This document shows positions 7,816-36,658 of a stretch of 64,000 nt of DNA, piece by piece. The stretch covers positions 186,001 through 250,000 of the forward strand of contig NZ_JADQDR010000006.1 in assembly GCF_015694705.1 (NCBI RefSeq), written 5' to 3'. This DNA is from Pontibacter rufus (GTDB lineage Bacteria > Bacteroidota > Bacteroidia > Cytophagales > Hymenobacteraceae). Numbering within the stretch: the stretch's first letter is position 1; every line of letters begins with the position of its first letter. The position numbers and the translations under genes are program-made. The notes beneath the pieces are model-generated. The model searched no databases. It was not told the DNA's origin and was given only the letters and a program-made list of their open reading frames with translations.

Positions 7816-7837
7816 GGTTATAGAATGTTTCTGATGT
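7816..7837 (-). promoter_or_regulatory. Candidate PUL operator, copy A (upstream of GH9)
   Basis: On the + strand the site reads GGTTAT, three free bases, then ATGTTTCTGATGT. The same 22-bp layout recurs at 23519-23540 and 36637-36658, each time upstream of a carbohydrate gene on the minus strand. It lies 136 bp before the GH9 start. A role as regulator binding site is inference. Confidence 0.5.
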
Positions 7838-7965
7838 ATAGCCTAAGCGTTAAACACGGCTGATGCAGGATACTGTCCTGGTTCCGCAACCAACTTTTAT
7901 GGCATCGCGGTGCAGGCCTGCCTATACCAGGGCCTGTGCCACAGAATACAGTAATAAAAGAAAAG

Positions 7966-9315
7966 CTATTTTTGTACGATTGCCTTGCTGCCGGCTGAGG
8001 CGGTTTTGCCGGTTTTGTATAGTATCCACTCCCCGACCTGCAGGCCTTGTGTACGTCCGTTGTCGATAGCGTCCATAAAATGAATGCCACCATAAAACCG
8101 GGAAATTCCGGCTTCGATCGCTGCCTGCTGAAAGGATGCAAATGGGCGGGATGGCAAGCCATAACGTGTTTCCACCGAGTCGGTAAACCTGAAGTTATCG
8201 CCAAAATAATGGGTTAATACCACCGCCGATGCAGCAGAAATGGTAGAATGGCCGCTCAGGTACTCCGGGAAAGGAGGCGTCTGCAGGAAAGGCTTCCAGG
8301 TAGCATCCATATACCTGCGGATAGCTGTTTCAGGGCGTATGCGGTTACTCCTGAATTTCTCGTCCCAGCAGGAAATAAAGCCATCCATCAGCGCCACCGA
8401 CACCAAGGTGTTTATTTCCATGGCTTCTGAAAAGCTTTTATTCGCCTTCTGGCAGGCAATACCCGTTATACCCAGCCAGTGCGCGCCGGGTGATATTTTC
8501 TTCATACCCACCATCAGGTGGCCGTTGTCCTGCAGCGCAAATGGGTTGCAGTCCCAGAAAGCAGCTATTTGCTGATGCTCATCTGATAAATCAGCGGCAT
8601 TTTCTTCAAGATTCAGCAGCATGAGGGTATAAAAGGCTGAATTCTTTTCCGTTGAGAAAGGGACAGGCGGTTTGGGCTTAAACTGGCTGCAGGTGTCGAG
8701 GGTAAAAGAACGAACCGTATTGAAGTATGGCTCCACAGGGGCAAAAAAGCCAGGCGGCGTAGGCTGCCAGGCACCCGCTTCCTCAGAAGGCGAATAGCGG
8801 GAATAGTTGCTGATACGGTTGTATTTATCCGACTTGGCATAAGCCAGGATGCTTTTGCTTACCGCCTGGGCATACGTTAGCGAGTTAGCGATTACGTCCT
8901 CCGGTACACCACTGTGGCGGCAGGAGTCCAGAAACTGCTGCTCATATGCCGCCAGCATTGCCCCAGAAGGTTGCATTTTCTGCGCTGTCTCCATCATGGC
9001 CAGCAACGCACTGAGCTGATAAGAGTAACCGGTGAGCCCGGCAGGCTTCTCTATCTTTGGATATTCATTCAGAATGCCATGCATGCTGCGGAAGGTGCTA
9101 TCGTGCTGCGAAACAATTTCGTAGCCGGCCAGGGTAGCATAAGAGAAGAAGCGCGCGGCGAGCGGTGGGTTGGTTACATCATTCACCATTACGTCAGTCA
9201 TTTCGGAAATTACCCCGCTGATGGCATCTCCGCTAAACTGTGGCTGCACAACTTCCTGCTTATGACAGGCCGACAAAGCAACAACAGCTACCATAAAGTA
9301 TAACAGCTTTCTCAT
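7966..9315 (-). CDS. Vanadium-dependent haloperoxidase-type lipoprotein (PAP2 superfamily)
   Basis: A 449-residue lipoprotein (lipobox ALSAC, C17) whose C-terminal half is an acid phosphatase/vanadium haloperoxidase fold. The oxyanion-binding signature is visible as SGHS at 354-357 and as SRFYGGIHFMDAID from about 405, giving R406 and the catalytic H412. An upstream segment RIRPETAIRRY (326-336) supplies the first basic motif. Sequence does not separate haloperoxidase from phosphatase activity. Its start codon overlaps the end of the upstream FG-GAP gene by 4 bp (ATGA), so the two are translationally coupled and probably act together on the cell surface or in the periplasm. Confidence 0.88.
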   Translation of the reverse strand: MRKLLYFMVAVVALSACHKQEVVQPQFSGDAISGVISEMTDVMVNDVTNPPLAARFFSYATLAGYEIVSQHDSTFRSMHGILNEYPKIEKPAGLTGYSYQLSALLAMMETAQKMQPSGAMLAAYEQQFLDSCRHSGVPEDVIANSLTYAQAVSKSILAYAKSDKYNRISNYSRYSPSEEAGAWQPTPPGFFAPVEPYFNTVRSFTLDTCSQFKPKPPVPFSTEKNSAFYTLMLLNLEENAADLSDEHQQIAAFWDCNPFALQDNGHLMVGMKKISPGAHWLGITGIACQKANKSFSEAMEINTLVSVALMDGFISCWDEKFRSNRIRPETAIRRYMDATWKPFLQTPPFPEYLSGHSTISAASAVVLTHYFGDNFRFTDSVETRYGLPSRPFASFQQAAIEAGISRFYGGIHFMDAIDNGRTQGLQVGEWILYKTGKTASAGSKAIVQK

Positions 9316-12300
9316 GGCTTCTTTATTTTATACGCTTTTACCTCGCCCTGATTCATACCGAACAGCAATATGTTGTTGACGGGCACAATGCTCCGCACAT
9401 CGCCTTTCAGTTGCAGGCCCGACTTATGCTGCGGCACAAACGCAAAACCACCTTTGCCGTTGCCCTGCAGCAACACACCATAGTTAGCGTCGTACTTGCC
9501 AAAGCGGAGGCGAGCCTGCCGGACGTTGCCGCACAGCAACAGGTCCTGCAGGCCATCCCGGTTGTAGTCTATACTTTGTATGGCAAACACCGGTGCAAAC
9601 TGAGCCTCTACCGGCAGCGTCTGCTCTTTAAATTTACCATCTGCACCGCCTTCAAAATAAGCTGTTTTCAGGTAATTCGCCGATAAATGCCCGGCTCCTT
9701 TCAGTTCCTGCGGGGTGAAAATATCATTGAGGGTAGCGTCAGAGTAGGTTTCGTAGTTGGCAAAGCGCGTACGTGTCATGCTAATCTGGTCCTGCAGTTC
9801 GTCGCGTGTTACATAAGGATAGCGTTTGCCCTGGATGTAGCAGCACAGAATCGGGTCTACCGAACCGTTGTCATCGAAGTCCTTGTAGTATAGTTCGGCA
9901 GGCTCACTGGCGGAGGTTTTTACCTGCGTATTCAGCCCCTGGTTGCCGGCTATCAAATCCGGATGACCATCCTGATTAAAATCATCGATCAGCAGTTTAT
10001 TCCACCAGCCGTTATACTTGTTACTGAAGTATGATTCGGTTTCATCACTGAGCTTGCCGTTTACATTTTTGAAGACCGTGATGGGCATCCATTCCCCTAC
10101 CACAACCAGCTCCTGCTTCCGGTCACCATCCAAATCATACCAGGCGGCATCCGTTACCAGGCCCAGCTTTTGCAACTGCGGCGCCAGCGATGCAGTCGCG
10201 TCTTTAAAGCGGCCTTTGCCATCGTTTAACAGCAAATAACTTTCCGGTATTTCGGGGTAGCGGCCAGGGATAACACGGCTGCCTACAAACAGGTCGGCAA
10301 AGCCATCGCCGTTTACGTCCGCTGCACGTGCACAGCTGGTGCTGGTAAGCATATCCGGCAGCGCATTTATACTTTTAACGAAGTTGCCTTTGCCGTCGCC
10401 CAGGTATAAGCGGTCCTGCAGCAATGCATCCTGCGGCATAAACGCACCGTAGCCGCCGCTGCTCACGTACAGGTCAGGCTTCCCGTCTTTGTTAGCGTCG
10501 AAAAACAGCGCATCGGTGTCCTCGCTGTTCTTGTCCTCTTCAAAGGCCGGAATGTCTTTATGCGCGAAGCTTTTATCTGGCTGTTGCAGGTATAAGGCAG
10601 CGGCTTGTCCGCTGCTTCCGCCCACAAACACGTCCTCCAACCCATCGCCGTTTACATCACTCTTCACCATGCAGGGCCCGGCAAACGACAATGGATTTAC
10701 CAGCAGCGGCTGGCGCTTAAAATCATTAATTGCTTTCTGCTGATGCGTAAAAGTAACCGGCGATTTAACTTCCTCAAAAATAGCGGGTGCTGCTTTCGCA
10801 GATTTATACTTGCCGGTGGCGTCTTTTTCCTGTAGCCTAAGCACCTGGTCTGCTTTTACCTCATGCAATACCTGCTGCCTACCGCTCTGCCACACAATGC
10901 GCAGCGAATCTATACCTGCTGCTTTGCCTAAACCAAAGTGCAACACCGGCGACACGCTTGACTGGTAACCCCGGGCCGGCATCTGCTCCTGGTATTGCTG
11001 CTGCCCGTTATTATAAAGCGTTACTTTAGCCCCAATGCCCTGCGTATTTTGTCCGGCCCCAGCCAGTTTTATCTGCAGGTAGTGGTTGTCTTTGAGCTTG
11101 TTTGCCTGGTTCTGATAAATGAAAGCGGGCTTGTTGATATTGTTGATCACCAGGTCCAGGTCGCCGTCATTATCCAGGTCGGCGTAGGCCGCTCCATTGC
11201 TGTTAGACGGCGTGTTGATACCCCAGTCTGCGCCTTTGTTGCTAAACTGCAGGTTGCCATCGTTCCGGAAGATATAGTTTTTGACGTTGGAAGACGGAAT
11301 CTTCTTGACCAAAGCCAAGACGCTTTGCTCGTTTAAGCCTCCCCGTTGAATAAAGGAACTTTCGTATTTGATAAAGTCCATGTTGGTGAAATCGCGCAGA
11401 AAGCCATTGCTCACGAACAGGTCTTTCCAGCCATCGTTGTCATAATCAGCAAACAGCGGTGCCCAGCTCCAGTCGGTATTGGAGATCCCCGTCAGCTGCC
11501 CTATTTCACTAAAAGTGCCATCGCCGTTATTTATTTGCAGCATATTGCGCATGTACTGGTGGTGCAGACCTGCCCGCACAAACATATCAAAGCGCTCATA
11601 ATTGTCGGGCGAAATCAGCAGTTTCTGGCGGCGGTTGTCTTCGGGCAGCATGTCCAGCGCAAAAATATCGAGCAGGCCGTCGTTATTGATATCTGCCACG
11701 TCGTTGCCCATCGAGTACAACGAAGTGTGTCCGATGCTTTGCTGCAGCTTGTCGGTAAAAGTGCCGTCGCCGTTGTTGATGTAAAGGTAATCCGGCGCAG
11801 AATAATCGCTGGAAATATAGATGTCAGGATGGCCGTCGCCATTCACATCGCTTATACCGGCTCCCAAGCCATACGTCAGCGCCGATCCGGCCAGGCCCGC
11901 TTTATCCGATACATCCGTAAAGTGGCCGTCGTCGTTCCGAAGTAGCTTTACGCGCATTTCCTCGGCTTTCCTGCTTAGTATCTGCTGAAAGGCAACGTCA
12001 TCGAGGTTACGGAACTGAATGGGGTTATGGTTGAGCAGGAACATATCCAGGTCGTTGTCCTGATCATAGTCGAAAAAGGTAGCGCTGGTGCTGAAAGAAG
12101 AACCGGCAACGCCATACTCCTGTGCCTGGTCCACAAATTTAGGAACACCGTTGGCATCAGGTCCCTGGTTGATAAAAAGCTGATTTGCCCGCGTTTCGGG
12201 GGGCATATTACCGGAGTAGCAGAGGTACATATCCAGCAGGCTGTCGCCGTTCACATCGGCCATCGTCACACCGGTTTTCCAGTTGTTTGGTCTGCCGGCC

Positions 12301-12668
12301 ACGCCTGCCGTGGTGGTGATATCCTCGAACCGCATGTTGCCTTTGTTCAGGTACAGGCGGTTGGGCGCCATGTTGCCGGAAAAGTATATGTCCTGCAGCC
12401 CGTCATTGTTCAGATCGCCCACCGCGACACCGCCTCCGTTGTAGAAGTACTGATACGTTAAGATATTCCCGTATGGGTTTTCATTGACGGTATTATTGAA
12501 GCTGATGTTGGTTCTTGCTACAGGCAACAGGGTGAACAGGGTTTCGGAGGGCGCATTATTTTGCTTAGCTGCACCTGTTTCAACCTTTGTGTCTTTCTGC
12601 TGACAGGCTGCCACCATAACTGTGAGGACCAGGAGATGAATAAGGCCGGATGTTTTTAAAAACTGCAT
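9312..12668 (-). CDS. FG-GAP/VCBS repeat lipoprotein with UnbV/ASPIC domain
   Basis: Large secreted lipoprotein of 1118 residues. I place the start at the ATG at 12668, because it gives a clean lipoprotein signal peptide (MQFLKTSGLIHLLVLTVMVAAC) and the 25 codons upstream look non-coding. At least a dozen Ca-binding loops of the form DxNxDGxxD are visible (for example DLNNDGLQDIYF, DVNGDGHPDIYI, DYDNDGWKDLFV, DFNQDGHPDLIA, DYNRDGLQDLLL), the mark of integrin-like FG-GAP propellers. Two propeller blocks flank a UnbV/ASPIC domain (about residues 510-610, with QGIGAKVTLY and HFGLG). Such proteins are assumed to bind ligands or partners extracellularly; the specific role is unknown. It is coupled by a 4-bp overlap to the haloperoxidase-type gene. 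Confidence 0.9.
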   Translation of the reverse strand: MQFLKTSGLIHLLVLTVMVAACQQKDTKVETGAAKQNNAPSETLFTLLPVARTNISFNNTVNENPYGNILTYQYFYNGGGVAVGDLNNDGLQDIYFSGNMAPNRLYLNKGNMRFEDITTTAGVAGRPNNWKTGVTMADVNGDSLLDMYLCYSGNMPPETRANQLFINQGPDANGVPKFVDQAQEYGVAGSSFSTSATFFDYDQDNDLDMFLLNHNPIQFRNLDDVAFQQILSRKAEEMRVKLLRNDDGHFTDVSDKAGLAGSALTYGLGAGISDVNGDGHPDIYISSDYSAPDYLYINNGDGTFTDKLQQSIGHTSLYSMGNDVADINNDGLLDIFALDMLPEDNRRQKLLISPDNYERFDMFVRAGLHHQYMRNMLQINNGDGTFSEIGQLTGISNTDWSWAPLFADYDNDGWKDLFVSNGFLRDFTNMDFIKYESSFIQRGGLNEQSVLALVKKIPSSNVKNYIFRNDGNLQFSNKGADWGINTPSNSNGAAYADLDNDGDLDLVINNINKPAFIYQNQANKLKDNHYLQIKLAGAGQNTQGIGAKVTLYNNGQQQYQEQMPARGYQSSVSPVLHFGLGKAAGIDSLRIVWQSGRQQVLHEVKADQVLRLQEKDATGKYKSAKAAPAIFEEVKSPVTFTHQQKAINDFKRQPLLVNPLSFAGPCMVKSDVNGDGLEDVFVGGSSGQAAALYLQQPDKSFAHKDIPAFEEDKNSEDTDALFFDANKDGKPDLYVSSGGYGAFMPQDALLQDRLYLGDGKGNFVKSINALPDMLTSTSCARAADVNGDGFADLFVGSRVIPGRYPEIPESYLLLNDGKGRFKDATASLAPQLQKLGLVTDAAWYDLDGDRKQELVVVGEWMPITVFKNVNGKLSDETESYFSNKYNGWWNKLLIDDFNQDGHPDLIAGNQGLNTQVKTSASEPAELYYKDFDDNGSVDPILCCYIQGKRYPYVTRDELQDQISMTRTRFANYETYSDATLNDIFTPQELKGAGHLSANYLKTAYFEGGADGKFKEQTLPVEAQFAPVFAIQSIDYNRDGLQDLLLCGNVRQARLRFGKYDANYGVLLQGNGKGGFAFVPQHKSGLQLKGDVRSIVPVNNILLFGMNQGEVKAYKIKKP

Positions 12669-13292
12669 ACTACTATACAAGGGAGATAAATTTAAAGGGC
12701 TTATATTTACCTGTAACTGGTTAAATCGCACTATACTAAGCATTTTAACTTAGAAAACGTTCTATAACCTTCAATTTTCAGGCTAAATAGCAGATGCAGG
12801 TAAGGACTATGTAAAATTTGGCACAAATTATTTTACAGTCAACTTTTACATGCTCAAAACACAAAAAGTCTTTTTGCCGTGTGGCTTAATACTTCATGAT
12901 CTTTACAGATTGTACCATGCTTGTTTGTTAGTAAGAAGGTAGAGTCAGGATTGCATCGCAGCCTCACGCGCTACACTATGCTGATGCACCAGATAGCACA
13001 CAAGCACTATAAGGAAGAAATCCAGATTGGCTTTTTCATTTCCGGGAATGTTTGATGATGAGGTATGGGAGAGCGCAACTTCAACGTACCAGTTGCAAGT
13101 ATACTATCCTTAGTCAGCAAAAAGAAATTCTTACACTTCGGGAGTGAAGCGGTACAGATAGTGGATGCCGTCTTAAAGCTTCTTAGGCGGCGGAATGTTC
13201 CGGTAGCTGCCTTTAATAGATTTAATGGTGAGCTGTTTCAGGAGTAATCTTTATACATCCACCAATGCATACTATATACTTTGAAGCGTTGC
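12669..13292. other. Intergenic region of about 620 bp, no supported gene
   Basis: This gap lies between the start of the FG-GAP gene and the end of the GH26 gene, both on the minus strand. A 60-codon + strand frame at 13065-13247 has no recognisable motif or signal peptide. AAGTATA heptamers occur near 13095 and 13276. The left part should hold the promoter for the FG-GAP/haloperoxidase pair; I could not identify convincing -7/-33 boxes. Confidence 0.5.
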
Positions 13293-23736: not shown

Positions 23737-23797
23737 TATAACTATCGTGTAAGGTTCGGCGCCCTTGCGCGGCGCCGAACCTTACACGATAGTTATA
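23737..23797. repeat. Perfect palindrome with 27-bp arms overlapping the DUF1080 stop codon
   Basis: The left arm 23737-23763 pairs without mismatch with 23771-23797 around the loop CTTGCGC. The right arm includes the stop codon (23793-23795) of the DUF1080 gene, so the 3' end of that mRNA folds into this hairpin. The apex is GC-rich (GGCGCC). It probably ends or protects the GH2-DUF1080 transcript and separates PUL 2 from PUL 1. Confidence 0.8.
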
Positions 23798-24689: not shown

Positions 24690-27161
24690 CTATTTTTCCA
24701 GATGTATTGTGATTGTTGCCGGCGCCAGCCCTTCGGAAGTAGCCGTGAGCTTTACCTCATCCGGCTCTTCCTGCGCCTGCACAATAGCCAGACACTTGCC
24801 ATGAAAAGCTTTGCGGTAACTGGCTTTAAATGGCTCTAAACTTGTTTGCAGGCCATTATCCACGCCGGCTATACTTGCTTTGCCGTCCAGGGCAAAGTGT
24901 ACCAGGTTGTCGGCGTAAGGCACCTCTATGCCATCCTTATCTACAATATGCACTGTCACGAAAGACAGGTCTTTGCCGTCAGCCCTGATGTTGTCGCGGT
25001 CAGCCTCCAGTATGACACGGGCGGGCGCACCAGCTGTTTTTATCTCCTGTGTCAGCACTTCTTTCCCGTCTTTTCTGGATACAGCCCGCAAGGTGCCCGG
25101 CTCAAAGGTCAGGCGCCACATTACGTGCAGGTCATCGCCTTGCTTGCTGCGCTTTCCCAGTGATTTGCCATTGAGGTATAACTCCACTTCATCGGCATGG
25201 TTGTAGTAAGCCCACACATCTATGGTTTTGCCAGCTGGCCAGTTCCAGTGCGGAAACACGTGCAACACCGGCTTGTCTGTCCACTCGCCCTGGTACATGT
25301 AGTAAGAATCTTTCGGAAACCCGGCCAGATCAACCACCCCGAAGTAGGAGCTGTGGGCAGGCCAGTCATAGGGCGTTGGCTCGCCGATGTAGTCGAAGCC
25401 TGTCCAGATATACATGCCCGAAAGGAAATCATACTTCTTGATTACTTTCCAGGTTTCTTCGTGCGTGGAGCCCCAGGGAGCGCTCACGTTGTCGTAGGCG
25501 GAGATGGTCAGATCAGGATTGCCGCCGTGGAAAGGAATATCCCAGCGCACCGGCCAGCGTCGGATGCTGTCGGAGGGCATGGTGTAGGTGCCGCGTGTGG
25601 CCAGTGCCGATGTAGTTTCGGTGGCAATAAACTTCTGTCCCGGAAAGTTCTTCGGAAAATCCTTGTAGAGCTCGTGATGGTAATTGAAGCCAACCAGGTC
25701 CAGTGCGCCGGATTTATAGATGTTGTTGTTGGGCTGCGGATCGTTCAGGGCAGAAGTTACAGGGCGGGTTTTATCGAGGCCTTTAACGATGCTTGCCAGC
25801 TCTTTGGTGATGGCAGGCCCTGCTATACTATCCCACTGCTCCGGAATCTCATTACCAATGCTCCAGATAAACACGCTCGGGTGGTTGCGGTCGCGGCGGA
25901 TGAGGTCTTCCAGGTCTTTCCGGTGCCACTTGTCCCAATGCGCGCTGTAGTCATACTTGGTTTTGCCTTTCTTCCACATATCAAAAGCTTCATCCATTAC
26001 AATAAAGCCCATTTTGTCGCACAATGCCAGCAACTCAGGTGCAGGCGGGTTATGCGACGTGCGGATGCCATTCACGCCCATGGCCTTCAGAATCTCCAGT
26101 TGCCGCTCCAGCGCACGTGTGTTAACGGCAGCACCCAGCGCGCCCAGGTCGTGGTGGTTGCACACGCCCAGTATTTTCATGGGTTTGCCGTTCAGCGAAA
26201 AACCCTGCTGCGCGTCGAAGTTAAAGTAACGGATACCCAGCGGCGTTTCGTAGTTGTCGATTACGTCGCCGTCCTGAGTAACCTGTGTTACCACAGTATA
26301 CAAGTATGGCTTCTCGACAGACCACAGGTTAGGCTGCTCTACGGTAAGTTGCTGGTTAAACTCGGTGGTACTGTCTGCCAGTTGCAGGTTGTCTTTGGTT
26401 GCGCGTGCTACCTCTTTGCCAGCGGCATCATACACAATGGTTTCTAAAGTATAAGGGCCTTTCTTTTCAGTCCTGTTATTGATTTTGGTGCTGATGACTA
26501 CTTTGGCCGTTTGTGCATTTACCTCGGGCGTGGTAACGTAAGTACCCCACTGGTCTACATATACCGGATTCGTTTTTACGAGCCATACATTGCGGTAAAT
26601 GCCTGATCCGGAGTACCAGCGGGAGTTCGGCTGCTGCGCATTGTCTACTTTTACGGCAATGGTGTTCTCTTTATCGCCATAGTTGAGGTAAGGCGTTAGT
26701 TCATAGCGGAAGGAGCTGTAGCCATTTGGCCGCTTGCCCAGGTAATGGCCGTTAATCCATACTTCGCTGTTGGTGTACACGCCGTCAAAGTCGATGAAAA
26801 ACAGCTTGCCTTTATCAGCTTCATCTATGGTAAATGATTTTCTGTACCAGCCGATACCGCCCGGCAAAGCGCCTCCACCCGCGCCCGCCGGATTGTCTTT
26901 GCTGAAAGTGCCCTCGATGCTCCAGTCGTGTGGCAGGTTCAGCTTCCGCCAGTTGGTATCATCAAAATCAGGCGCTTCAGCGTTGGTTGTATCACCCAGA
27001 CGGAAGGCCCAACCTTTATCGAAATCGGTTCGTTCTCGGGCCTGTGTTTGAGCAGATTCTTTTACAGCCGAGGTCTTGCAGGCGTACAGGCTGAAAACAG
27101 CAGCCAGCAAAAGGGCAAAGGTATAGCCTTTGGCAGCGGCTTTTCTTAAAGTATGATACAT
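24690..27161 (-). CDS. GH2 beta-galactosidase-type lipoprotein
   Basis: Glycoside hydrolase family 2 enzyme of 823 residues, releasing beta-linked terminal sugars (galactose most likely; mannose or glucuronic acid possible). I choose the ATG at 27161 because it opens a lipoprotein signal peptide that ends at LYAC; the ATG at 27197 would add 12 residues. Domain order is a jelly-roll (GWAFRLGD, LPHDWSIEG), an Ig-like domain, the TIM barrel with acid/base in IWSIGNE and nucleophile in FIATETTS (E450 and E527 counted from 27197), a DUF4982 domain (KTIDVWAYYNHADEVELYLNG) and a final Ig domain with IRADGKDLSFVTV. It lies after the PUL 2 terminator, so it probably has its own promoter in 27162-27367. 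Confidence 0.93.
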   Translation of the reverse strand: MYHTLRKAAAKGYTFALLLAAVFSLYACKTSAVKESAQTQARERTDFDKGWAFRLGDTTNAEAPDFDDTNWRKLNLPHDWSIEGTFSKDNPAGAGGGALPGGIGWYRKSFTIDEADKGKLFFIDFDGVYTNSEVWINGHYLGKRPNGYSSFRYELTPYLNYGDKENTIAVKVDNAQQPNSRWYSGSGIYRNVWLVKTNPVYVDQWGTYVTTPEVNAQTAKVVISTKINNRTEKKGPYTLETIVYDAAGKEVARATKDNLQLADSTTEFNQQLTVEQPNLWSVEKPYLYTVVTQVTQDGDVIDNYETPLGIRYFNFDAQQGFSLNGKPMKILGVCNHHDLGALGAAVNTRALERQLEILKAMGVNGIRTSHNPPAPELLALCDKMGFIVMDEAFDMWKKGKTKYDYSAHWDKWHRKDLEDLIRRDRNHPSVFIWSIGNEIPEQWDSIAGPAITKELASIVKGLDKTRPVTSALNDPQPNNNIYKSGALDLVGFNYHHELYKDFPKNFPGQKFIATETTSALATRGTYTMPSDSIRRWPVRWDIPFHGGNPDLTISAYDNVSAPWGSTHEETWKVIKKYDFLSGMYIWTGFDYIGEPTPYDWPAHSSYFGVVDLAGFPKDSYYMYQGEWTDKPVLHVFPHWNWPAGKTIDVWAYYNHADEVELYLNGKSLGKRSKQGDDLHVMWRLTFEPGTLRAVSRKDGKEVLTQEIKTAGAPARVILEADRDNIRADGKDLSFVTVHIVDKDGIEVPYADNLVHFALDGKASIAGVDNGLQTSLEPFKASYRKAFHGKCLAIVQAQEEPDEVKLTATSEGLAPATITIHLEK

Positions 27162-27367
27162 CGTCAGTGGCTTTTTACTCAACATTTTTGTGAGCAATAA
27201 ATATACAAAAGGATAAGTGTCGTGAACGCGTTAATATATTCCATACGAGGCAGCAGCTTCAGGAAAATACAAACAACCAGTACCCGCAGACCTGCTTTTT
27301 AAGCGGAGCTACTTACTTATACTTCGATCAGCACAGGCTGCATCTTTCAGGTTCAACAGCTCTGTAA

Positions 27368-27454: not shown

Positions 27455-28834
27455 TTAAGGCAAAATATAGTGGAAGGCCAGCCACTCATCTTTTCCAGCA
27501 TCATAGCTGGTACCAAACCAGATACCTTTGCTTTGAAATTCTTCCGGGAAAGCTTTTACAACCTTCAGAATATTGGTAGCCGGGTTCATCCAGTGTCCCG
27601 GATTCTGGATTAGCGTACCCCCTTCGCTTAAGGTAATTTCATTGGTCTCTTCGTTTATCGTAAATGTGCCTGTTGTGGTCTCGCCGTTCTGGTAGCGGGT
27701 ATAATTCTGGCCGCCAAATTGGTCGAAGCGAACCCATGCGCCTGCCGCAGCAGTAACCCAGGTGTCGTTCCAGCCCCAGTCTTTAGAGTCTGCGGCCGAT
27801 GTCGTCCAGCCTTTGCCGCCTGCAATCCAGTCCACCGGATTACCTGCCACATCCAGTTCCCATACCCGCCCGGAAGACTGGCCACCGGTCAGCATCGTCA
27901 GTAATTCGCCAGGAGCAAATGTTGGATCAAAACCTTCGTCCGGACCTGTTTCTACCGGCGCTTCGGGCACGTAGTTATCAGCGTACTCTTTCGGGATAAA
28001 ATTCCATACATACAGGTAATCGCCTTCGCTGTTGGTGCGGCGAACGCCGACCTGCAGCGCGTTTTCAGTCAACGACAGCACCACCAGGTTGTTGTTCCAG
28101 TTTGTGGCGTTCGCAATAAAGCTGGGAGATCGGAGGATAGTCGCATCTGTTGTGCTCAAAGTATGCTCTTTCGCGTTGAAAGAGAAAGTGCCTGTCTCGT
28201 TCACACCTTCCGATACTTTATGAGTTTTCAGAATGGGCCCGCCTTTCAGGCTGAAAGTCATGGTACTGGCTGTATCTGCCGCCGGGATCAGCCAGGTATT
28301 ATCAGCATAAGCAGGCGCCCATCCTAATTTAGCAGTCCCTACCTGGAAATCTTCCCAGGTGGTTAACGGCTCATAGTAGTATATAGGCCCGTCAAAAATA
28401 CCGTGCCCGCCATAGTCCAGTACCCACGTCTTCTCATTGCCAACGCCGCCGGTCAGGTTTGTCCACAACGGATCGTTCACGTAGCTGAGGTTATCTTCTG
28501 TCACATGGATGGTCGTCGGCTCCATCTCCACGATTCCGCCGGCTGTAAGCGCAGAAAACTTGATAACATAATCGCCTGCAAAGGCAAAATGCACCGTATC
28601 GACCATGCGGTTTGACTTTCCGGTGCCGTAATCCCACATAGATACTGTTTCGGGAGTCTGATTGATGAGGATAACTGTGTTGCCGCCCGGATCGGCCTCC
28701 AGGTCCTGCACCACTTTGTAATGTATCTCGGATCTGTCGAGCATTCTGCCCAAATCGTGGTCATTATCCTGGCACGATGTAAAAAGAAACATCGGGGCAA
28801 GAAGCAGTAAAAATAAAATTCTGAAGCTTTTCAT
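27455..28834 (-). CDS. PUL 2 surface lipoprotein with PKD-like domain and a duplicated C-terminal domain
   Basis: A 459-residue lipoprotein of no named family known to me, in the place of a surface glycan-binding protein after SusD. ATG at 28834 is chosen since it starts the signal peptide MKSFRILFLLLLAP ending at TSC; the 29 codons upstream look untranslated. Residues about 25-110 resemble a PKD fold (PETVSMWDYGTG, DYVIKFSA). Two copies of one domain follow (about 120-285 and 305-459). Each runs from LTGG plus a W-x-L-D strand, through a Trp-rich middle, to TGTFxxN, ILxxP, a hydrophobic VV or VK strand and a final W/F strand. The many Trp residues suit sugar binding. A terminator lies just downstream. 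Confidence 0.78.
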   Translation of the reverse strand: MKSFRILFLLLLAPMFLFTSCQDNDHDLGRMLDRSEIHYKVVQDLEADPGGNTVILINQTPETVSMWDYGTGKSNRMVDTVHFAFAGDYVIKFSALTAGGIVEMEPTTIHVTEDNLSYVNDPLWTNLTGGVGNEKTWVLDYGGHGIFDGPIYYYEPLTTWEDFQVGTAKLGWAPAYADNTWLIPAADTASTMTFSLKGGPILKTHKVSEGVNETGTFSFNAKEHTLSTTDATILRSPSFIANATNWNNNLVVLSLTENALQVGVRRTNSEGDYLYVWNFIPKEYADNYVPEAPVETGPDEGFDPTFAPGELLTMLTGGQSSGRVWELDVAGNPVDWIAGGKGWTTSAADSKDWGWNDTWVTAAAGAWVRFDQFGGQNYTRYQNGETTTGTFTINEETNEITLSEGGTLIQNPGHWMNPATNILKVVKAFPEEFQSKGIWFGTSYDAGKDEWLAFHYILP

Positions 28835-28911
28835 CTTATAAAGTCTTTTATGGTCACCTGGTTCCCTGCATGTACCGGACAGGAGCTGCGCAAAGATCTG
28901 TGCTCCCCTGC

Positions 28912-28927
28912 CCCGGCACATGCCGGG
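28912..28927 (-). repeat. Intercistronic hairpin between SusD2 and the lipoprotein gene
   Basis: CCCGGCACATGCCGGG forms a 6-bp GC stem with a 4-base loop in the 123-bp gap between the two genes. It may attenuate transcription or stabilise the upstream susCD message; no T-run follows. Confidence 0.4.
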
Positions 28928-28957: not shown

Positions 28958-30550
28958 CTACCAGCCAGGATTTTGCTGCAGCACGCCATCTGACAGCGTG
29001 ATTTGTGTATAGGGAATTTGCTGCAGGCCCCGGGTTTGAATAATATTATTAGCTACTATCGTTTTAGGTACCGTTGTGCCGCCGTTTTCCACCGTAGTTG
29101 ATTCGGCAATTTCAGCAGCAGCCACTTCTACACCCTGGCGCAGCAGGTCCCAGTAGCGCAGCCCTTCAAAGGCAAACTCCAGGCGGCGCTCTTCCAGCAT
29201 GTTTTCCCCGGTTACGGGCAATGCCGAGAAGTTGTCTTTGTAAGCGCGTCGCCGTACTGTATCAAAATAAGCCTGGGCATTGGGGCTGCCCAGCTCGGCT
29301 GCCATCAGCAACACATCCGCATAGCGAATAGAAACAAAATCCTGGAACTGGCCAATCATAAAGTTAGTGGCGCCCAGGCTTACGGGTATGCTGTTGCCGT
29401 TCTCGTCCACCATCGGGGTATACTTCTTTATATAATAGCCGGTGTATTCTCTTTGTTTGGCCTGATTGACAAAAGGAATGTCCTCTTCTTTAATAGCGAT
29501 GATAGATGCTGTTTTACGCGTGTCGTTGTCGCTGTAGGCATTCCAGAGTTCCGGGTTCACGGTACCTCCTCCCCACCCGTTTCCGTAAGGATAGTTGAAC
29601 TGCTCACGCAGCCCGAGCATCACCATCCAGTGGTTACCATCGGTGTTTCCGTTGTAGTCGCTGGTATAGGTATACTTGACGGCAAACACGGTTTCCTTGT
29701 TATCCTCTCCCGCATAGTCTCCGAGCGAGGCTGCCGGCCATAGATTAGCATAGTCTTCTACCAAACCAAAGCCGCCATTGGCAATCACGTCTTCCAGGTA
29801 GGCCAGGGCCTGTGCTTTGTCCACCACGCCTGCCAGATCGGGCTTTGCGTAATAGCCGGTATAGTATAAGTATGCGCGACCTAGCAGCGCTTCTGCCGCC
29901 CATTTGGTTGCGCGGCCGTAAGTTGCCGGATTTTGAGCCGTATAGGGAGTAGCCGCCAGGTTCTCGGTAGCAAACTTCAGGTCTTCCGCAATCACTTTAT
30001 ACACCTCTTCCGGCGCTGCCTGCGGCAGGTTTTCGGCGGTGGGTTCTGTCAGCAGCGGAATATTGCCCCAGAGCCGCACCATGTCGAAGTATAAATAAGC
30101 ACGTAAGTACCTGGCTTCAGCCTCGTAAGTATTCCTGAGTTCTTCTTTACCGGTCCAGTCTATCTGATCCATTTTGCTGATCAGCACATTGCAGCGGTAT
30201 ATGGCCCTGTAATAAGCAGACCAATTACCCCCAAAGAGATTCTGATCCGAAGGAGAACGGGATTTATCAAACTCATCGAGCATCTGGTAGCCGAAACCGT
30301 CTGAGTTGCCTGTGCCGCCGTAAGCATTGTCGGAGAGCACGATGGAAGCAACCGGAAAACTGATGCCTTCTGCCCACACCGACTGCAGTCCGTCATAGCA
30401 TCCTACCAGGGCTTTGTAAGCATCGTCCGGAGTCCGGTAAAAGTTGGCATCCGTTACCGATGTCAGGGGTTCTGTATCCAGGAAGCTATCGTCGCAGGCC
30501 CCCAATGACAGAACGCCCAATGCCAGTAATAATATCTTTGCTCTTTTCAT
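28958..30550 (-). CDS. SusD/RagB-family glycan-binding lipoprotein of PUL 2
   Basis: A 530-residue SusD homologue that pairs with the SusC immediately upstream. ATG at 30550 gives MKRAKILLLALGVLSLGAC, a clean lipoprotein signal; the ATG at 30565 adds five residues. The mature start DDSFLDTEPLTSVTDANFYRTPDDAYKAL is typical of the family, as are ARYLRAYLYFDMVRLWGNIPLL and the C-terminal ISIRYADVLLMAAELG-like region and RRLEFAFEGLRYWDLLRQG. It is complete. The gap to SusC is at most 18 bp. Confidence 0.96.
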   Translation of the reverse strand: MKRAKILLLALGVLSLGACDDSFLDTEPLTSVTDANFYRTPDDAYKALVGCYDGLQSVWAEGISFPVASIVLSDNAYGGTGNSDGFGYQMLDEFDKSRSPSDQNLFGGNWSAYYRAIYRCNVLISKMDQIDWTGKEELRNTYEAEARYLRAYLYFDMVRLWGNIPLLTEPTAENLPQAAPEEVYKVIAEDLKFATENLAATPYTAQNPATYGRATKWAAEALLGRAYLYYTGYYAKPDLAGVVDKAQALAYLEDVIANGGFGLVEDYANLWPAASLGDYAGEDNKETVFAVKYTYTSDYNGNTDGNHWMVMLGLREQFNYPYGNGWGGGTVNPELWNAYSDNDTRKTASIIAIKEEDIPFVNQAKQREYTGYYIKKYTPMVDENGNSIPVSLGATNFMIGQFQDFVSIRYADVLLMAAELGSPNAQAYFDTVRRRAYKDNFSALPVTGENMLEERRLEFAFEGLRYWDLLRQGVEVAAAEIAESTTVENGGTTVPKTIVANNIIQTRGLQQIPYTQITLSDGVLQQNPGW

Positions 30551-30568
30551 ACGTTTACAATTCAATTC

Positions 30569-33500
30569 TTAAAACTTAAGGTTCGCTCCAATCAACACTG
30601 TTCTTGGCCTTGGATAATATCCCAGGTCCACACCCTGCGCAAAGTCAATGCTATACCCTATTTCCGGGTCCATACCTTCGTATTTGGTGAAGGTGTACAG
30701 GTTCTGCACCGAAGCATAAATTCTTACCTGGCTGAGGTAATCTTTCTTGATCAAGCGGCCGAAATCATAACCAACCGTTACATTGCTGATGCGCAGGAAA
30801 TCGCCGTCATGGATGTACAGGTCAGAGAAGTTGGTCCAATTACGGGCATCTTCTGTTACACGCGGAATGGTGTTGGAAGAACCTGGGCCGTGCCAGCGAT
30901 CCAGAATAGCGGTGGTATAGTTGGCATACTGGTTTGCCTGGTTGCGGTACGACTGCACGAGTTGGTTGCCGGCCACGCCCGAAGCAAGCAGCGAAAAATC
31001 AAACCCTCTGTAATCGGCAGAGAGGGTCAGGCCGAAAGTATAATCGGGGTTGGGATTACCGATAATGGTTCTGTCCTGCTCATTGATCACGCCATCGCCG
31101 TTCTGGTCCACATACCTCACATCGCCCGGCGCGGCATTTGGCTGGATCAGGACGCCTTCCGGCGATCTGTAAGCACCTACTTCTTCCTCACTCTGGAAAA
31201 TACCGGCGGTTTGCAAGCCCCAGAAATAGCCGATAGGGAAACCGTTCTGCGCTCTGTAGAACTCCAGCGAGTTGTCGAACAACTGGTTCGCCAGTCCGTG
31301 CACAACGCCATCAGCTGTCGGGATGCTGCCTACTTCATTTTTGTTGTAAGCGCCGTTCACGCCCACTGAATAGTTAAGCTCCCCAATGTTGTCGTTATAC
31401 GTAATACCAAGTTCCACCCCTGTATTCTTCACGTCTCCACCGTTGATAAAAGGCGGTGCGGCGCCTGCCGTAGCCAGGATGGGCGCCTCTATCAGCCAGT
31501 CTTTGGTCGTTTTATCATACCAGTCGAAGCTCATATCCAACTTGCCGTTCAGGAAACGGGCATCGAAACCAAGGTCGGTCTGCTCCGATGTTTCCCATTG
31601 CAGATCAGGATTACCGAGCCTGCTGGGATAAGCGCCAGGGGTAAGCGTGCCTTCTTCAGATCCGAAAATATAGTTGGTGTTGGCAAAAGTAACCGGCGCC
31701 AGGTACTGGAAGAAGCTGATGTTCTGGTTGCCGACCTGTCCCCAGCTGGCACGCAGTTTCAGAAAACTCAGCCAGTCCTGCGTATCACCCATAAATGCTT
31801 CGTTGGTTACTACCCAACCAGCCGAAACAGAGGGAAAGTAGCCCCAGCGGTGGCCTTGTGCGAACCTGGATGATCCATCGGCACGGAAGGTCGTGTTCAG
31901 CAGATAAGTTTCCTTGTAATTATAGTTCAGTCTGCCGAAATACGACATCCTTCTATCCTGGTCGTAAGGAGCGCCGGTGAGGCTGATGCCGGCCCCAAGG
32001 CTGTTGGTGGCATTAGACAGCCAGGCGTGCTCCAGATCATTGAATATAAGATCCGTGTTGCTGCCATAGATGCTGCTGCCATCGTTCTGGTAGGCAGAAG
32101 TACCAACCATCACCTCAAAGGCATTGTCTTCGTTCAGGTTGAAATTGTAAGTCAGCAAATTGTCCCAGATCAAGGTTCTGCCTTTGCCCATCGACTGTCC
32201 TACCCTTGTGATGTTGTTAAAGGCGTAAGCAGACAAAGTATAAACTGGCATGAAAGAACGGCTTTCGCTCGCAGCATAATCCAGCCCCAGGCTTGTTCTG
32301 AATCTCAGGTTTTTGATAGGCTCCACGACCAGGTACATATCTCCTAACAGGCGCTGGTTGTTGCGCTCGTTCTGGTTACCATAAACCATCTGTGCATAAG
32401 GATTCGCCTCACCAGTATTCCAGGTAGAATTGCTGTTGTCGTAGAAGTTACCGTCCTCGTCATACATCGGCACAAACGGGCTGGTGTTAAAGGCGCCTCG
32501 TAACGAGTTATTGTACTGGTTACCTACCCCGATACCATTATTGTTGATATAGGCATAGGTCAGGTGCTCGCCTATTTTGATAACGTCCTTATACAGGTTG
32601 TGCTCAGAGTTGATCAGGAAATTATAGCGCTCATAGTTAGACAGGCTTTTGCCGCCCACAATGCCTTCCTGCGAAGTATAAGAAAGAGACGTAGAGAAAG
32701 TAGAAGTTTCAGAGCCTCCGCTCGCCCCCAAAGTATAATTTTGGGTAACGGCATCATTCACAAACATCTCATCCAGCCAATCGGTGCCGCTGCCCATGGC
32801 CGCAATCTCATCGTTGGTGAAATACGGCATTTTGCCTGCATTTACGGCAGCCTCGTTCATGATAGAAGCATACTCTTTGGAGTTCAGCAAGTCAGCTTTT
32901 CTGGCAACATTCTGCAGGCCATAGTAGGCATCAAACGTAATTTTGGCCGGCTGACCGGTCTTGCCTCCGCGGGTTGTGATCAGCACCACGCCGTTGGCAG
33001 CCTGCGAGCCATAAATAGCGGCAGAAGCGGCATCTTTCAGCACATCAATGGAGGCAATATCCGCAGGGTTCAGGTAAGAAATATCGCCTGTCAGCACACC
33101 GTCTACCACGTAAAGCGGGCCGGCATTGCCGATGGTACCCAGGCCCCGCACAATCACGCGCATCCCTTCGCCCGGCTGGCCCGACGTAGAAGAAATCTGC
33201 ACGCCCGGCGCCTGCCCCTGCAAAGCCTGCAGTGCGTTGGTGGTGCTTTGCTTCTGAATGTCCTCCCCTGATACCTGCGCTGTGGCGCCGGTTACGAGTT
33301 TCTTCTGTTGCGTGCCATAACCTACCACCACTACCTCGTCCAGCAATTCCTGATCGGTGGCCAGGGCTATGTTTATTTGTGAACGCCCGTTAACAGGCAC
33401 TTCCTGTGTTTTAAAACCGATGTAAGATACCACGAGCACCGCATCATCAGCGGCCTGCAGCGCAAAATTTCCGTCAATATCCGTTATGCTTCCGGTAGAT

Positions 33501-33637
33501 GTTCCTTTCACGGCAATACTTACGCCGGGCAGCCCTGTTCCATCAGCTTCTGATGTAACACGCCCTTTTACAACCTGCTGCGCATAAGCGGCTCCACAGG
33601 TATAGAGCAACAATATTAGTATTAGAAATTTCCTCAT
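30569..33637 (-). CDS. SusC/RagA-family TonB-dependent transporter of PUL 2
   Basis: TonB-dependent outer-membrane importer of 1022 residues. It has a signal peptide MRKFLILILLLYTCGAAYAQ, a carboxypeptidase-regulatory-like domain (about 22-100), a TonB-box/plug region (PLYVVDGVLTGD, SAAIYGSQAANGVVLITT) and a 22-strand barrel ending GANLKF. The N-terminal 100 residues are close to those of the PUL 1 SusC, whereas the barrels differ, as expected for different substrates. The gene begins 58 bp after GH31, with a hairpin between them. Confidence 0.96.
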   Translation of the reverse strand: MRKFLILILLLYTCGAAYAQQVVKGRVTSEADGTGLPGVSIAVKGTSTGSITDIDGNFALQAADDAVLVVSYIGFKTQEVPVNGRSQINIALATDQELLDEVVVVGYGTQQKKLVTGATAQVSGEDIQKQSTTNALQALQGQAPGVQISSTSGQPGEGMRVIVRGLGTIGNAGPLYVVDGVLTGDISYLNPADIASIDVLKDAASAAIYGSQAANGVVLITTRGGKTGQPAKITFDAYYGLQNVARKADLLNSKEYASIMNEAAVNAGKMPYFTNDEIAAMGSGTDWLDEMFVNDAVTQNYTLGASGGSETSTFSTSLSYTSQEGIVGGKSLSNYERYNFLINSEHNLYKDVIKIGEHLTYAYINNNGIGVGNQYNNSLRGAFNTSPFVPMYDEDGNFYDNSNSTWNTGEANPYAQMVYGNQNERNNQRLLGDMYLVVEPIKNLRFRTSLGLDYAASESRSFMPVYTLSAYAFNNITRVGQSMGKGRTLIWDNLLTYNFNLNEDNAFEVMVGTSAYQNDGSSIYGSNTDLIFNDLEHAWLSNATNSLGAGISLTGAPYDQDRRMSYFGRLNYNYKETYLLNTTFRADGSSRFAQGHRWGYFPSVSAGWVVTNEAFMGDTQDWLSFLKLRASWGQVGNQNISFFQYLAPVTFANTNYIFGSEEGTLTPGAYPSRLGNPDLQWETSEQTDLGFDARFLNGKLDMSFDWYDKTTKDWLIEAPILATAGAAPPFINGGDVKNTGVELGITYNDNIGELNYSVGVNGAYNKNEVGSIPTADGVVHGLANQLFDNSLEFYRAQNGFPIGYFWGLQTAGIFQSEEEVGAYRSPEGVLIQPNAAPGDVRYVDQNGDGVINEQDRTIIGNPNPDYTFGLTLSADYRGFDFSLLASGVAGNQLVQSYRNQANQYANYTTAILDRWHGPGSSNTIPRVTEDARNWTNFSDLYIHDGDFLRISNVTVGYDFGRLIKKDYLSQVRIYASVQNLYTFTKYEGMDPEIGYSIDFAQGVDLGYYPRPRTVLIGANLKF

Positions 33638-33658: not shown

Positions 33659-33696
33659 GAGAAAGCCCCGCCAGCCGGTGCTGGAAACGCTTTCTC
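33659..33696 (-). repeat. Cruciform hairpin between GH31 and SusC of PUL 2
   Basis: An outer stem GAGAAAGC (33659-33666) pairs with GCTTTCTC (33689-33696), and an inner stem CCAGC/GCTGG closes a CGGT loop. It reaches the GH31 stop codon. No T-run follows, so partial attenuation or mRNA processing between GH31 and susC is more likely than full termination. Confidence 0.5.
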
Positions 33697-36551
33697 TATT
33701 TAAGCTTAACTGATTTGGATTTTCCGGAATATTTAATTACCTGATCAGGCGTGGCGTCAAACTGCAGTTCTTTGGGCCTGTTTTGATTGATGTATACCAC
33801 GTTGAAGGTTCTGTTTTTCAGCATACCATCAAAACTGCCTTCGCGCTTGCCTATCGTGAGTGTTTTAGCGGCTTCGTTGTAGGTGATGGGGATAATGGCA
33901 AACTTTCCTTTCTCATAGTTATAGTTGGTGTTCTCGTCTTCGTAAAGTTCGAATTTACCATCTTTGCCACCATATACATACAGTGTTATGGTTTCTGCAG
34001 GCTTTTCGGCCGCGTATTCTATTTCAGGGCCAAACGGAAGTATAGCGCCCTCTTTTACAAAAATCGGCATACGCTCGTAAGGCGCATCTGCTGTAAGTTG
34101 CTGACCGCCTTTCACGTACTTGCCGTCGTACAGGTTGTACCAGCCGGTGCCGGCTGGCAGGTATAAACTACGGGTAGTGGCTTTGTATTCATACACCGGA
34201 TTTATCAGCAGGCCTGGCCCGAACATAAACTGGTCGCCGATATTGAACACTTTCTTATCTTGTCCGAAGTCCATTACCAGCGCACGCATGATGGTATAAT
34301 CGTCGTGGTATACCTTGCCGGTGAGCGAATAAATGTAGGGCATCAGGCGGTAGCGCAGCTTGTTGTAATACACGATAGACTTGTAAGCCTTGTGATCTGC
34401 CGGGGCAACGTTAAAAACTTCACGATAAGGAAACTGGCCATGCGATCGGAATAAGGGCGTGAACGTGCCATACTGGTACCAGCGGGTTTCCAGTTCCCGC
34501 CACTGCTCCAGCGCTTCGCCTTTCGGCTCAGGCCGGTCATACTTGTTTTCTACAAAGAAACCGCCGATATCGGTTGTCCAGTACGGGAGGCCGGAGAGCG
34601 AGAAGTTGAGGCCAGCCGGGATCTGACGGCCCATCTCGTCGAACGTGGCGGCAATGTCGCCGCTCCAGGTGGCAGCTCCGTAGCGCTGCAAACCGCCAAA
34701 AGCCGAGCGGGTAAGTATAAATACGCGCTTGTTGGGCGCTACACTACGCTGCCCCTCATAAATGGCTTTGTTCTGCATCAGCACGTAGGCATTAAAAACC
34801 TTGTCGGCCGCACCCAGGTAAGTTGGGTTCATCAGGGCCTTGCGGTGCTCGATAGAGGAATTCGACAGGATATCGGGCTCGGTGGCGTCCAGCCACCAGG
34901 CGTCCACGCCTTTGCTGTACAGTTTTTCGTTTAGGAGTTTCCAGAAAAGCTTTCTGCCCTCGGGGTTAAAAGCATCATAAAAAGTGGACACATAGCCTTT
35001 GCCAATCCAGTCGCGGATGCCTTCGTTTATACTTGTTTTGTAGAGCAGACCTTTGTCATCAAATAGCTTATAGTTAGCCGTTCCCTCATAAAACTTAGGC
35101 CACACCGATATCATGAAGTGCATGTTATACTTGTCGTGCAGCTCGTCAATCATACCTTCAGCATCCGGGAAGCGCGTTTCGTCAAATTCGTGGCTGCCCC
35201 ACTGATCTTCCTTCCAGTAAGACCAGTCCAGCACAATGTTATCGATGGGGATTTCCCTTTTCCGGAATTCCTTTGCTGTGCTGAGGATCTCTTCCTGCGT
35301 TTTGTAGCGCTCGCGGCTTTGCCAGAAGCCCATCGCCCACTTCGGCATTACCTGCGCGGCGCCCGTTAAAGTTCTGTAGCCACTGATAACTTCATCGATG
35401 TTGCGGCCATTCACAAAGTAATAGTTGATCTTATCGCCTGCCTCCGAGGCAAAGGCAATCCTGCTTTTCTCCGCCGGCGTTTGCGGCGTCAGGTAGCGTA
35501 GGGCAATAAACGACTGCCCGCCGTCCGGGTTCCACTCAATTTTAAATGGATGCCTGCGGCCCTTTTCCAGCTTCTGCGTAAACACCGATTGTCCCGGATT
35601 CCAGGCTTCGCGCCATTTGTCCAGCAGCAGCTCGTTGTCTATCCATACTTTTACATAGCCGGATGCCGGCATCGAAAAATGAAATTCGCCGCTTGCATCC
35701 GGCTCGATATAACCCTCCCAGGTCACGGTGCCGCCTTCCAGAGAATACCCTTCCGGGAAATTCTTCAGCTGCTCCAGAAATTCATAGTTAATATCCTTTT
35801 CCAGGCGCACAATGGGCGCTTTGCCTGATTTGGGAGCCGATATGTAAGTAGCAGTGAGTCCGCCGGGTTTGTTGTCTTTTGTGTAGAGTTTCAGGCTGGA
35901 AAGTGGCTGATACGGCCGTACATCGCCAAACTTGGTAATGGAGTTGTTATCCCAGAGGATGCCGTAGTTCCTGTTCGAAACCATGAAGGGCACAACAGCC
36001 ACGGAGTTATACTGCGTCAGGTCTACCTGCCAGCCCCTGTAATTCATCAGGCCGGTCTGGTGCTGGCCCAGGCCATAAAAGGCTTCGCCATCAGCTGCCT
36101 TAAAAGCCTGCTGCAATGCATAGCTTTTTTCCTGACCAAACTTAACCGGCGTAAATGCATTGCCGCTTCCACCGGTTTCCTGCAATATTGTATTTCCGGC
36201 CTTATCCTGAAAAGTAACCTCGCCGGTGCTGGCGGCTACTTTTACCTGCAGCGATTTTGTGCTGAGTACCAGGCCATCGTTGTTTTCCTTAATTGTCCAG
36301 CCTGCGGGCGCTTTTCCGGTGTCAATCACCATCAGGCTTTCCTCGTTTCCAAACTCCCGCGTGGGCGCAGCCACTACATGTATGATGTTGTCTGCTATTA
36401 CCTGGAGCTTTACATACTGTGGGTCTGCGGCACTTGTCTGTTCCAGCTCCACCAGCACGCCGTCGTCTAACTTCTTAAAGCTTTTAATGGGTCCGGTGAA
36501 GGACGACAGCGCAACAAATAACAACAGGTAAAGGGCACTTCTAACTCTCAT
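33696..36551 (-). CDS. GH31 alpha-xylosidase-type enzyme with PA14 insert
   Basis: Retaining alpha-glycosidase of 951 residues from the ATG at 36551, which opens the signal peptide MRVRSALYLLLFVALSSF; the 25 codons before it look non-coding. An N-terminal beta-sandwich (about 25-250) is interrupted by a PA14 module (about 255-360: WEGYIEPDASGEFHF, KVWIDNELLLDKW), as in xyloglucan-active GH31 alpha-xylosidases. The barrel carries the nucleophile Asp in WWLDATEPD (residue 555 in this numbering) and the acid/base Asp in TWSGD (632). The PA14 insert and WLDATEPD favour alpha-xylosidase over alpha-glucosidase. The 22-bp element lies 85 bp upstream. With GH9 and GH2 it fits xyloglucan breakdown. 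Confidence 0.92.
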   Translation of the reverse strand: MRVRSALYLLLFVALSSFTGPIKSFKKLDDGVLVELEQTSAADPQYVKLQVIADNIIHVVAAPTREFGNEESLMVIDTGKAPAGWTIKENNDGLVLSTKSLQVKVAASTGEVTFQDKAGNTILQETGGSGNAFTPVKFGQEKSYALQQAFKAADGEAFYGLGQHQTGLMNYRGWQVDLTQYNSVAVVPFMVSNRNYGILWDNNSITKFGDVRPYQPLSSLKLYTKDNKPGGLTATYISAPKSGKAPIVRLEKDINYEFLEQLKNFPEGYSLEGGTVTWEGYIEPDASGEFHFSMPASGYVKVWIDNELLLDKWREAWNPGQSVFTQKLEKGRRHPFKIEWNPDGGQSFIALRYLTPQTPAEKSRIAFASEAGDKINYYFVNGRNIDEVISGYRTLTGAAQVMPKWAMGFWQSRERYKTQEEILSTAKEFRKREIPIDNIVLDWSYWKEDQWGSHEFDETRFPDAEGMIDELHDKYNMHFMISVWPKFYEGTANYKLFDDKGLLYKTSINEGIRDWIGKGYVSTFYDAFNPEGRKLFWKLLNEKLYSKGVDAWWLDATEPDILSNSSIEHRKALMNPTYLGAADKVFNAYVLMQNKAIYEGQRSVAPNKRVFILTRSAFGGLQRYGAATWSGDIAATFDEMGRQIPAGLNFSLSGLPYWTTDIGGFFVENKYDRPEPKGEALEQWRELETRWYQYGTFTPLFRSHGQFPYREVFNVAPADHKAYKSIVYYNKLRYRLMPYIYSLTGKVYHDDYTIMRALVMDFGQDKKVFNIGDQFMFGPGLLINPVYEYKATTRSLYLPAGTGWYNLYDGKYVKGGQQLTADAPYERMPIFVKEGAILPFGPEIEYAAEKPAETITLYVYGGKDGKFELYEDENTNYNYEKGKFAIIPITYNEAAKTLTIGKREGSFDGMLKNRTFNVVYINQNRPKELQFDATPDQVIKYSGKSKSVKLK

Positions 36552-36636
36552 TTTCAAAGGGTAAAGTTTGTCTTTCACGGCACGCATCAGGTGCGTTTTT
36601 AACCCTAGCAAGGTACCGGAAAGCACGGGAGAGCAG

Positions 36637-36658
36637 GGGTATCAAATGTTTCTGATAT
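36637..36658 (-). promoter_or_regulatory. Candidate PUL operator, copy C (upstream of GH31)
   Basis: The site reads GGGTAT, CAA, then ATGTTTCTGATAT on the + strand, between the HTCS terminator and the GH31 start. It shares 16 invariant positions and the spacer length with copies A and B. This is the copy nearest to the HTCS gene. Confidence 0.5.

Follow-up and report, generated by a model that had tools for sequence, protein, structure and literature searches.

The window, a stretch of 64,000 nucleotides from Pontibacter rufus, contains an HTCS regulator and a series of carbohydrate genes on the minus strand, several of them preceded by copies of a short element (copies 1 to 3).

5862-7679, minus strand: GH9, BoGH9A-like endoglucanase, behind copy 1; matches BoGH9A (6dht) at 565 bits
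13293-20022, minus strand: susD1, SGBP-B-like gene (PF18329), TIG/IPT protein and GH26 mannanase-like gene with CBM35; the rest of the putative susC1 operon
20041-23226, minus strand: susC1, first gene behind copy 2
24690-27197, minus strand: GH2 GalB-type beta-galactosidase, passing the GalB cut-off; operon membership assumed
27455-28921, minus strand: 488-aa protein with no Pfam match; operon membership assumed from strand and order
28958-33637, minus strand: susC2 (30569-33637) and susD2 (28958-30565), behind GH31 on the same strand; putative operon
33696-36551, minus strand: GH31 with PA14, BoGH31A-like alpha-xylosidase, first gene behind copy 3; matches BoGH31A (5jou) at 1097 bits
36795-40994, minus strand: HTCS regulator of 1399 aa, predicted to bind the module described below (from Pfam, PDB relatives and co-occurrence with the site)

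By similarity, the locus has the parts of a xyloglucan locus: an endo-xyloglucanase, a GH31 alpha-xylosidase, a xyloglucan SGBP and SusC/D. A 391-aa protein carries the SGBP-B xyloglucan-binding domain and matches PbSGBP-B, and the GH26 matches beta-mannanases. Based on the BoGH9A-, BoGH31A-, SGBP-B-like, GalB-type and mannanase matches, the substrate is most likely xyloglucan, with a mannanase-like enzyme attached. An earlier reading of this DNA, made from its letters and open reading frames (the sequence-only reading), had named hemicellulose for its proposed transcript mapping, and gene content narrows this to likely xyloglucan. The GH31 gene probably starts at the ATG at 36551 and not at the GTG at 36626, because in the nine other genus members the GH31 match starts at residues 17-26 of the longer reading, and because this GTG would come before the predicted -7 box. 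Directly upstream of GH9, at 7966-12743, are two genes, one for a protein with a PAP2 domain and one for a large FG-GAP/UnbV protein. The PAP2 gene adjoins GH9 in four other genomes as well (G014, G022, G028, G035), and the profile described below found no site belonging to these two window genes.

As for the regulator, its single chain contains Reg_prop, Y_Y_Y, HisKA, HATPase_c, Response_reg and HTH_18, each above the Pfam cut-off, which is the HTCS plan of propeller sensor, Y_Y_Y, histidine kinase, receiver and AraC-type HTH. It had been described as the only PUL-type regulator in the window, and the other regulators found there are not of PUL type. When compared to its genus relatives, it has SRVQLYKK for SRVHLYKK and NNPKYFAKYF for NNRKYFTKYF, in segments which we take to be the recognition helices; a pairing of recognition-helix residues with operator letters was examined and set aside as too patchy. 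DNA binding by HTCSs in Bacteroides is described, in the available part of PMC11253607, as restrained by an S/CHIP-linked interaction until phosphorylation. The window receiver contains SHIP. This is not a general feature: among 30 open frames including that of the window, SHIP is found in 10, another HIP in 3 and none in 17, in a count which takes the first HIP in the chain and where the receiver position was checked for the window protein alone.

The 22-bp element had been placed at 7816-7837, 23519-23540 and 36637-36658. All three positions are correct, with 0 mismatches each, and the common orientation, the constant 3-base spacer and the 16 positions shared by all copies are equally accurate. 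Each copy is intergenic and oriented toward the minus-strand gene that it precedes. Within the window, pattern matches at up to 3 mismatches are these three copies only, and shuffled windows gave a mean of 0.09 matches, with 0 of 100 shuffles reaching 3 or more. The sequence-only reading had proposed scanning the genome at up to two mismatches, an even spread of hits counting against it. The window covers 186001-250000 of contig 18 in a genome of 5.03 Mb and 21 contigs, in which the 0-, 1- and 2-mismatch matches are confined to the three window copies, with no even spread. At exactly 3 mismatches there are 13 further matches, and a reversed control pattern gives 5 in total; these 13 were set aside, as they are absent from the four matches of the profile at E<=10. 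The exact TGTTTCTGAT core is found at the three copies only. The partial core match at about 37210 is no full copy, as had been stated, and appears only as profile noise (37218-37236, 4.7 bits, E 1.9).

The element is real and 22 bp long, but the operator extends beyond what had been described, and a promoter-like box follows it at constant spacing. Read gap-free on the minus strand, the full module is TGTTAAC-N11-AYATCnGAAACATTTGATACCC-N21-TAnnTTnG, with the 22-bp element as its middle part. In all three copies TTAAC lies 11 bases ahead of the element and TAnnTT 21 bases past it. E-values below are those of the held-out profile on the whole genome.

7787-7854, minus strand: module copy 1, before GH9 (E 1.8e-9); TTAAC 7853-7849, 22-bp element 7837-7816, -7 box TACATTAG 7794-7787
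23490-23557, minus strand: module copy 2, before susC1 (E 2.2e-6); TTAAC 23556-23552, 22-bp element 23540-23519, -7 box TAATTTAG 23497-23490
36608-36675, minus strand: module copy 3, between HTCS and GH31 (E 1.3e-11); TTAAC 36674-36670, 22-bp element 36658-36637, -7 box TACCTTGC 36615-36608

Copy 3 sits 136 bases behind the HTCS gene, and copy 2 is the poorest fit to the profile (29.8 bits). Between the PF06439 gene and copy 2, at 23682-23790, are two long tandem hairpins, each with 20 counted pairs. They were scored as terminator-like on one strand or both, and may insulate the susC1 operon from the upstream unit.

We aligned 27 sites, comprising the three window sites, 19 of 20 sites from relatives and five of the profile's own matches. 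T5, T6, A7, C9, GAAAC at columns 27-31 and TT at 68-69 are invariant. Information reaches up to 2.2 bits inside the module, with a mean of 0.13 and a maximum of 0.97 (column 79) outside it. The distance from TTAAC to GAAAC is 22 bp, forming a degenerate direct repeat whose halves have mainly AAC(A) in common. In a self-match of the operator, lag 22 has the best total among lags 12-33 (10.5; the next is 7.7, at lag 32), and lag 32 beats lag 22 per position (0.64 vs 0.48). ATAACC is found in two of the three window sites and ATACCC in most relatives.

The primary-sigma promoter of Bacteroidota is described as TAnnTTTG at -7 and TTTG near -33 (PMC7366714, PMC9723704, in the parts available), with the -7 box occupying -12 to -5 (PMC9723704). 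The sites resemble this promoter in their TAnnTT box: among the 27 aligned sites, TT is present in 27 and the T and the A in 26 each, with the last two letters varying so that the full TTTG ending is not retained. They differ from it at -33, with no conserved TTTG in alignment columns 43-59, where the proximal half-site ends instead; the missing -33 TTTG suits an activator-dependent promoter. With the -7 box set at -12 to -5, TTAAC would fall at -71 to -67, GAAAC at -49 to -45 and ATACCC at -39 to -34. A sigma-70 promoter scan was set aside as unsuited to this phylum. Five bases past the 74-column alignment and eight bases after the -7 box, column 79 holds an A in 23 of the 27 sites and may mark the transcription start or a position close to it.

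The profile (R1) was built from sequence only, using 20 sites from 11 genus relatives and none from the window's genome. Sixteen of these sites came from matches to the pattern at up to 2 mismatches, chosen by eye as clustered or similar to copy 3, and the other 4 from scanning those regions and the HTCS locus of G021 at four mismatches. One further candidate out of 21, a four-mismatch match without TTAAC (L069:17060), was removed. Together the 11 training genomes have 24 matches with no more than 2 mismatches; the 8 left out before training were not recovered by the profile. The 20 training sites align gap-free over 74 columns. In the window's genome (5.03 Mb), with 150 of 1144 first-look candidates scored, R1 gave three matches, which are the three copies, and the next has E 1.31. 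This genome has one other HTCS-like match reaching the AraC domain at E<=1e-30 (31-35% identical). The protein (L194, G000:C14:431291-434665) lies beside its own susC/susD pair, and no site was found within the 20 kb examined around it.

Wider searches scored part of the first-look candidates under stricter filters (98 per genome in the genus, 24 in the family, 12 in the order). The HTCS was found at E<=1e-300 in 12 of the 50 genus genomes, and sites are present in all 12, with the best E per genome between 6.6e-16 and 1.8e-11. The 38 genus genomes without the HTCS gave only one marginal match, in G045 (E 0.026), lacking TTAAC. Since 11 of the 12 HTCS genomes provided training sites, the weight rests on the absences elsewhere and on the wider searches. 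The original pattern at two mismatches was too loose for the genus and was dropped, matching in 33 of 50 genomes, many without the HTCS. At up to 1 mismatch it gives 11 matches in 8 genomes, all with the HTCS, one of which (G008:C45) was not confirmed by the profile.

Targets of the 33 profile matches in HTCS genomes of the genus were assigned by tblastn with 15 window proteins and a GH9 search. GH31 was assigned 9 times, susC1 8, GH9 6 and a PF06439-like gene 4, leaving 6 without a target (three with a locus and no match, three with no locus). GH9 lies directly behind a site in only 6 of the 12 genomes. The site is 0.14-0.75 kb behind the HTCS in 11 of 12 genomes and 2.3 kb in G035. In the G037 locus (L053), the HTCS match contains one in-frame TAA. 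This HTCS-adjacent site is constant while the next gene varies: it is GH31 in 9 genomes of the genus, PF06439-like in G014 and G028, and GH9 in 8 genomes of genus g5. Furthermore, where target genes are retained without the HTCS, as with GH9 in G002 and G041 and GH31 in G034, there is no site at these genes; in G034, none of six neighbouring ORFs scanned is a PUL gene.

At the family level, sites at E<=1e-3 are found in 25 of 204 genomes, all of them among the 30 that have the HTCS, with the HTCS search scoring 2 candidates per genome and absences holding at that sensitivity. Thirteen of the 25 are outside the genus and contributed no training sites. With the 50 genus members counted within the 204, the remaining genomes have sites in 13 of 18 with the HTCS and 0 of 136 others. 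Fisher tests, which ignore relatedness, give 1.9e-27 for the family and 1.1e-10 for the genus; since the HTCS-bearing genomes are related, the counts cannot be taken as independent. No site at E<=1e-3 was found in five of the 30 HTCS genomes (G052, G053, G055, G056, G057; HTCS 49-53% identical), and in G053 the HTCS match ends before the HTH.

In the order sample, 13 of 390 genomes have sites. Two genomes of family f19 (G446, G424) keep the HTCS-site-GH31 order of the window, in loci that also contain susC1, susD1, SGBP-B and susC2 homologues; no site was found in the 0.6 kb examined upstream of the G424 susC1 homologue. G464 has a site ahead of its susC1 homologue, with no HTCS within the 20 kb examined, and G243 and G387 have partial matches (E 8e-4). 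Records labelled Ohtaekwangia, Bacteroides and Chitinophaga (L121, L122, L135) have weak sites that retain the TTAAC-to-GAAAC/GATAC spacing but lack the -7 box; these were not counted.

Upstream of the window HTCS, the profile found no site. In Sabulibacter ruber, the HTCS match has a second, weaker site about 0.3 kb upstream of it (L119:9652-9718; E 1.3e-4 over profile columns 5-40). Judged by eye, this site has a -7-like box with the usual spacing, and HTCS autoregulation is suggested in that species. In genus g5, seven genomes (G180, G181, G183, G186, G189, G191, G195) have two HTCS matches each at E<=1e-300, and six of them, all except G181, have a site within 0.7 kb of each HTCS. In G183 and G195, GH9 follows one HTCS site and GH31 the other, and the two operators differ slightly; shared or diverging regulons are possible in these two genomes.

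An operator-promoter of this kind could also be genuine and yet answer mainly to an unlinked transcription or sigma factor, with the HTCS merely travelling with the loci. The GH9 and susC1 sites are indeed about 29 and 13 kb away from the HTCS, the G464 site has no HTCS within the 20 kb examined, and the window encodes a cNMP-binding regulator (43791-44369), a sensor kinase (46052-47593) and a LuxR-type response regulator (47681-48391). We consider this improbable: the site remains next to the HTCS even where a different gene follows, it is missing from the three target genes retained in genomes that lack the HTCS, the other regulators found in the window are not PUL-type, and the 22-bp direct repeat fits the HTCS motifs in the available part of PMC3878776.

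It is very unlikely that the element is instead an ECF sigma recognition sequence or an RNA leader element. Hemicellulase genes are also placed under ECF sigma/anti-sigma systems (PMC10766802, in the part available), but the element ends 21 bases before a primary-sigma-type -7 box and so should be upstream of the transcript, and at 38 bp, counted from TTAAC through ACCC, it is longer than a sigma -35/-10 pair. None of the 36 window ORFs scanned is a sigma-family gene above cut-off; the LuxR-type regulator has a sub-threshold match to sigma region 4. Least probable of all, close to negligible, is a recent duplication of promoter DNA with no regulatory meaning, which the presence of all three copies within 29 kb on a single contig might suggest. 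Against it stand the weak signal in the flanks of the 27 sites and the fact that other genera, and a further family, keep the module at homologous genes.

We therefore regard it as very probable that each copy is an operator at fixed distance from an activator-dependent promoter, and that the activator is the HTCS at 36795-40994. The copies lie upstream of PUL operons with a putatively cognate HTCS gene beside them, as expected of HTCS operators. The proposal that the three transcription units form one regulon under the adjacent HTCS is supported by the held-out profile, which finds the three sites and no other below E 1, by the restriction of family sites (E<=1e-3) to HTCS genomes, and by the three orphan targets without a site. 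Under this mechanism, xyloglucan oligosaccharides would enter via SusC/D and bind the periplasmic sensor of the HTCS, whose kinase would then phosphorylate the receiver. The AraC-type domains would dimerise on the direct repeat, in which TTAAC and GAAAC are spaced by 22 bp, or about two helical turns. Of the two subunits, the one nearer the promoter would cover GAAAC and ATACCC, ending at about -34, where the -33 box would be, and would recruit RNA polymerase to the -7 box TAnnTTnG. The outcome would be joint activation of GH9, the susC1 operon and the putative GH31-susC2-susD2 operon. Such a layout is expected of an activator that touches RNA polymerase from a promoter-abutting site, with its dimer on one face of the DNA.

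More tentatively, and at a little short of an even chance in our judgement, HTCS operators of this lineage may be rigid operator-promoter modules of about 70 bp, gap-free across families and found as a unit before different genes, in which the proximal AraC half-site replaces the -33 box; the rule may hold for HTCSs generally. If so, regulon membership in this order could be read from sequence alone. The analysis provides a base-resolved, predicted operator and promoter for an HTCS outside Bacteroides, with sites in 25 family genomes. The constant promoter spacing predicts where the activator would contact RNA polymerase, and regulon members can be searched for with one profile.

Among known systems, the closest in gene content is the xyloglucan locus BoXyGUL of Bacteroides ovatus, reportedly described by Larsbrink in 2014 with GH9, GH31, SGBP-B, GH2, SusC/D and an HTCS. 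The window locus is alike in this gene list, and the best PDB matches of its GH9 and GH31 are BoGH9A and BoGH31A. It is unlike BoXyGUL in that its genes are distributed among three putative transcription units and include two SusC/D pairs and a GH26 mannanase-like enzyme.

As for the operator, predicted Bacteroides HTCS motifs are direct repeats averaging 21 bp, close to two turns of the helix (Ravcheev et al. 2013, PMC3878776), and binding of the dimer on one face of the DNA was proposed for Bacteroides HTCSs in the same paper. The printed HTCS motifs that we found are Bacteroides predictions (PMC3878776), two of which concern promoters that served in binding assays (PMC11253607). The word xyloglucan has 0 occurrences in the main text of PMC3878776. 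A listed Pontibacter PUL paper concerns GH13/GH57 (PMC11206854). Among the literature matches listed, which mostly leave out subscription journals, we recognised no HTCS operator from Pontibacter or its family. The window sites resemble the Bacteroides motifs in being HTCS-associated repeats before transport and hydrolase operons, 22 bp here and 21 bp there, and differ in belonging to Pontibacter and its relatives, in the HTCS being that of a xyloglucan-type locus, and in the distance to the -7 box being fixed in the aligned sites. The system is most likely a known kind of switch, defined here base by base in a less-studied bacterial group.
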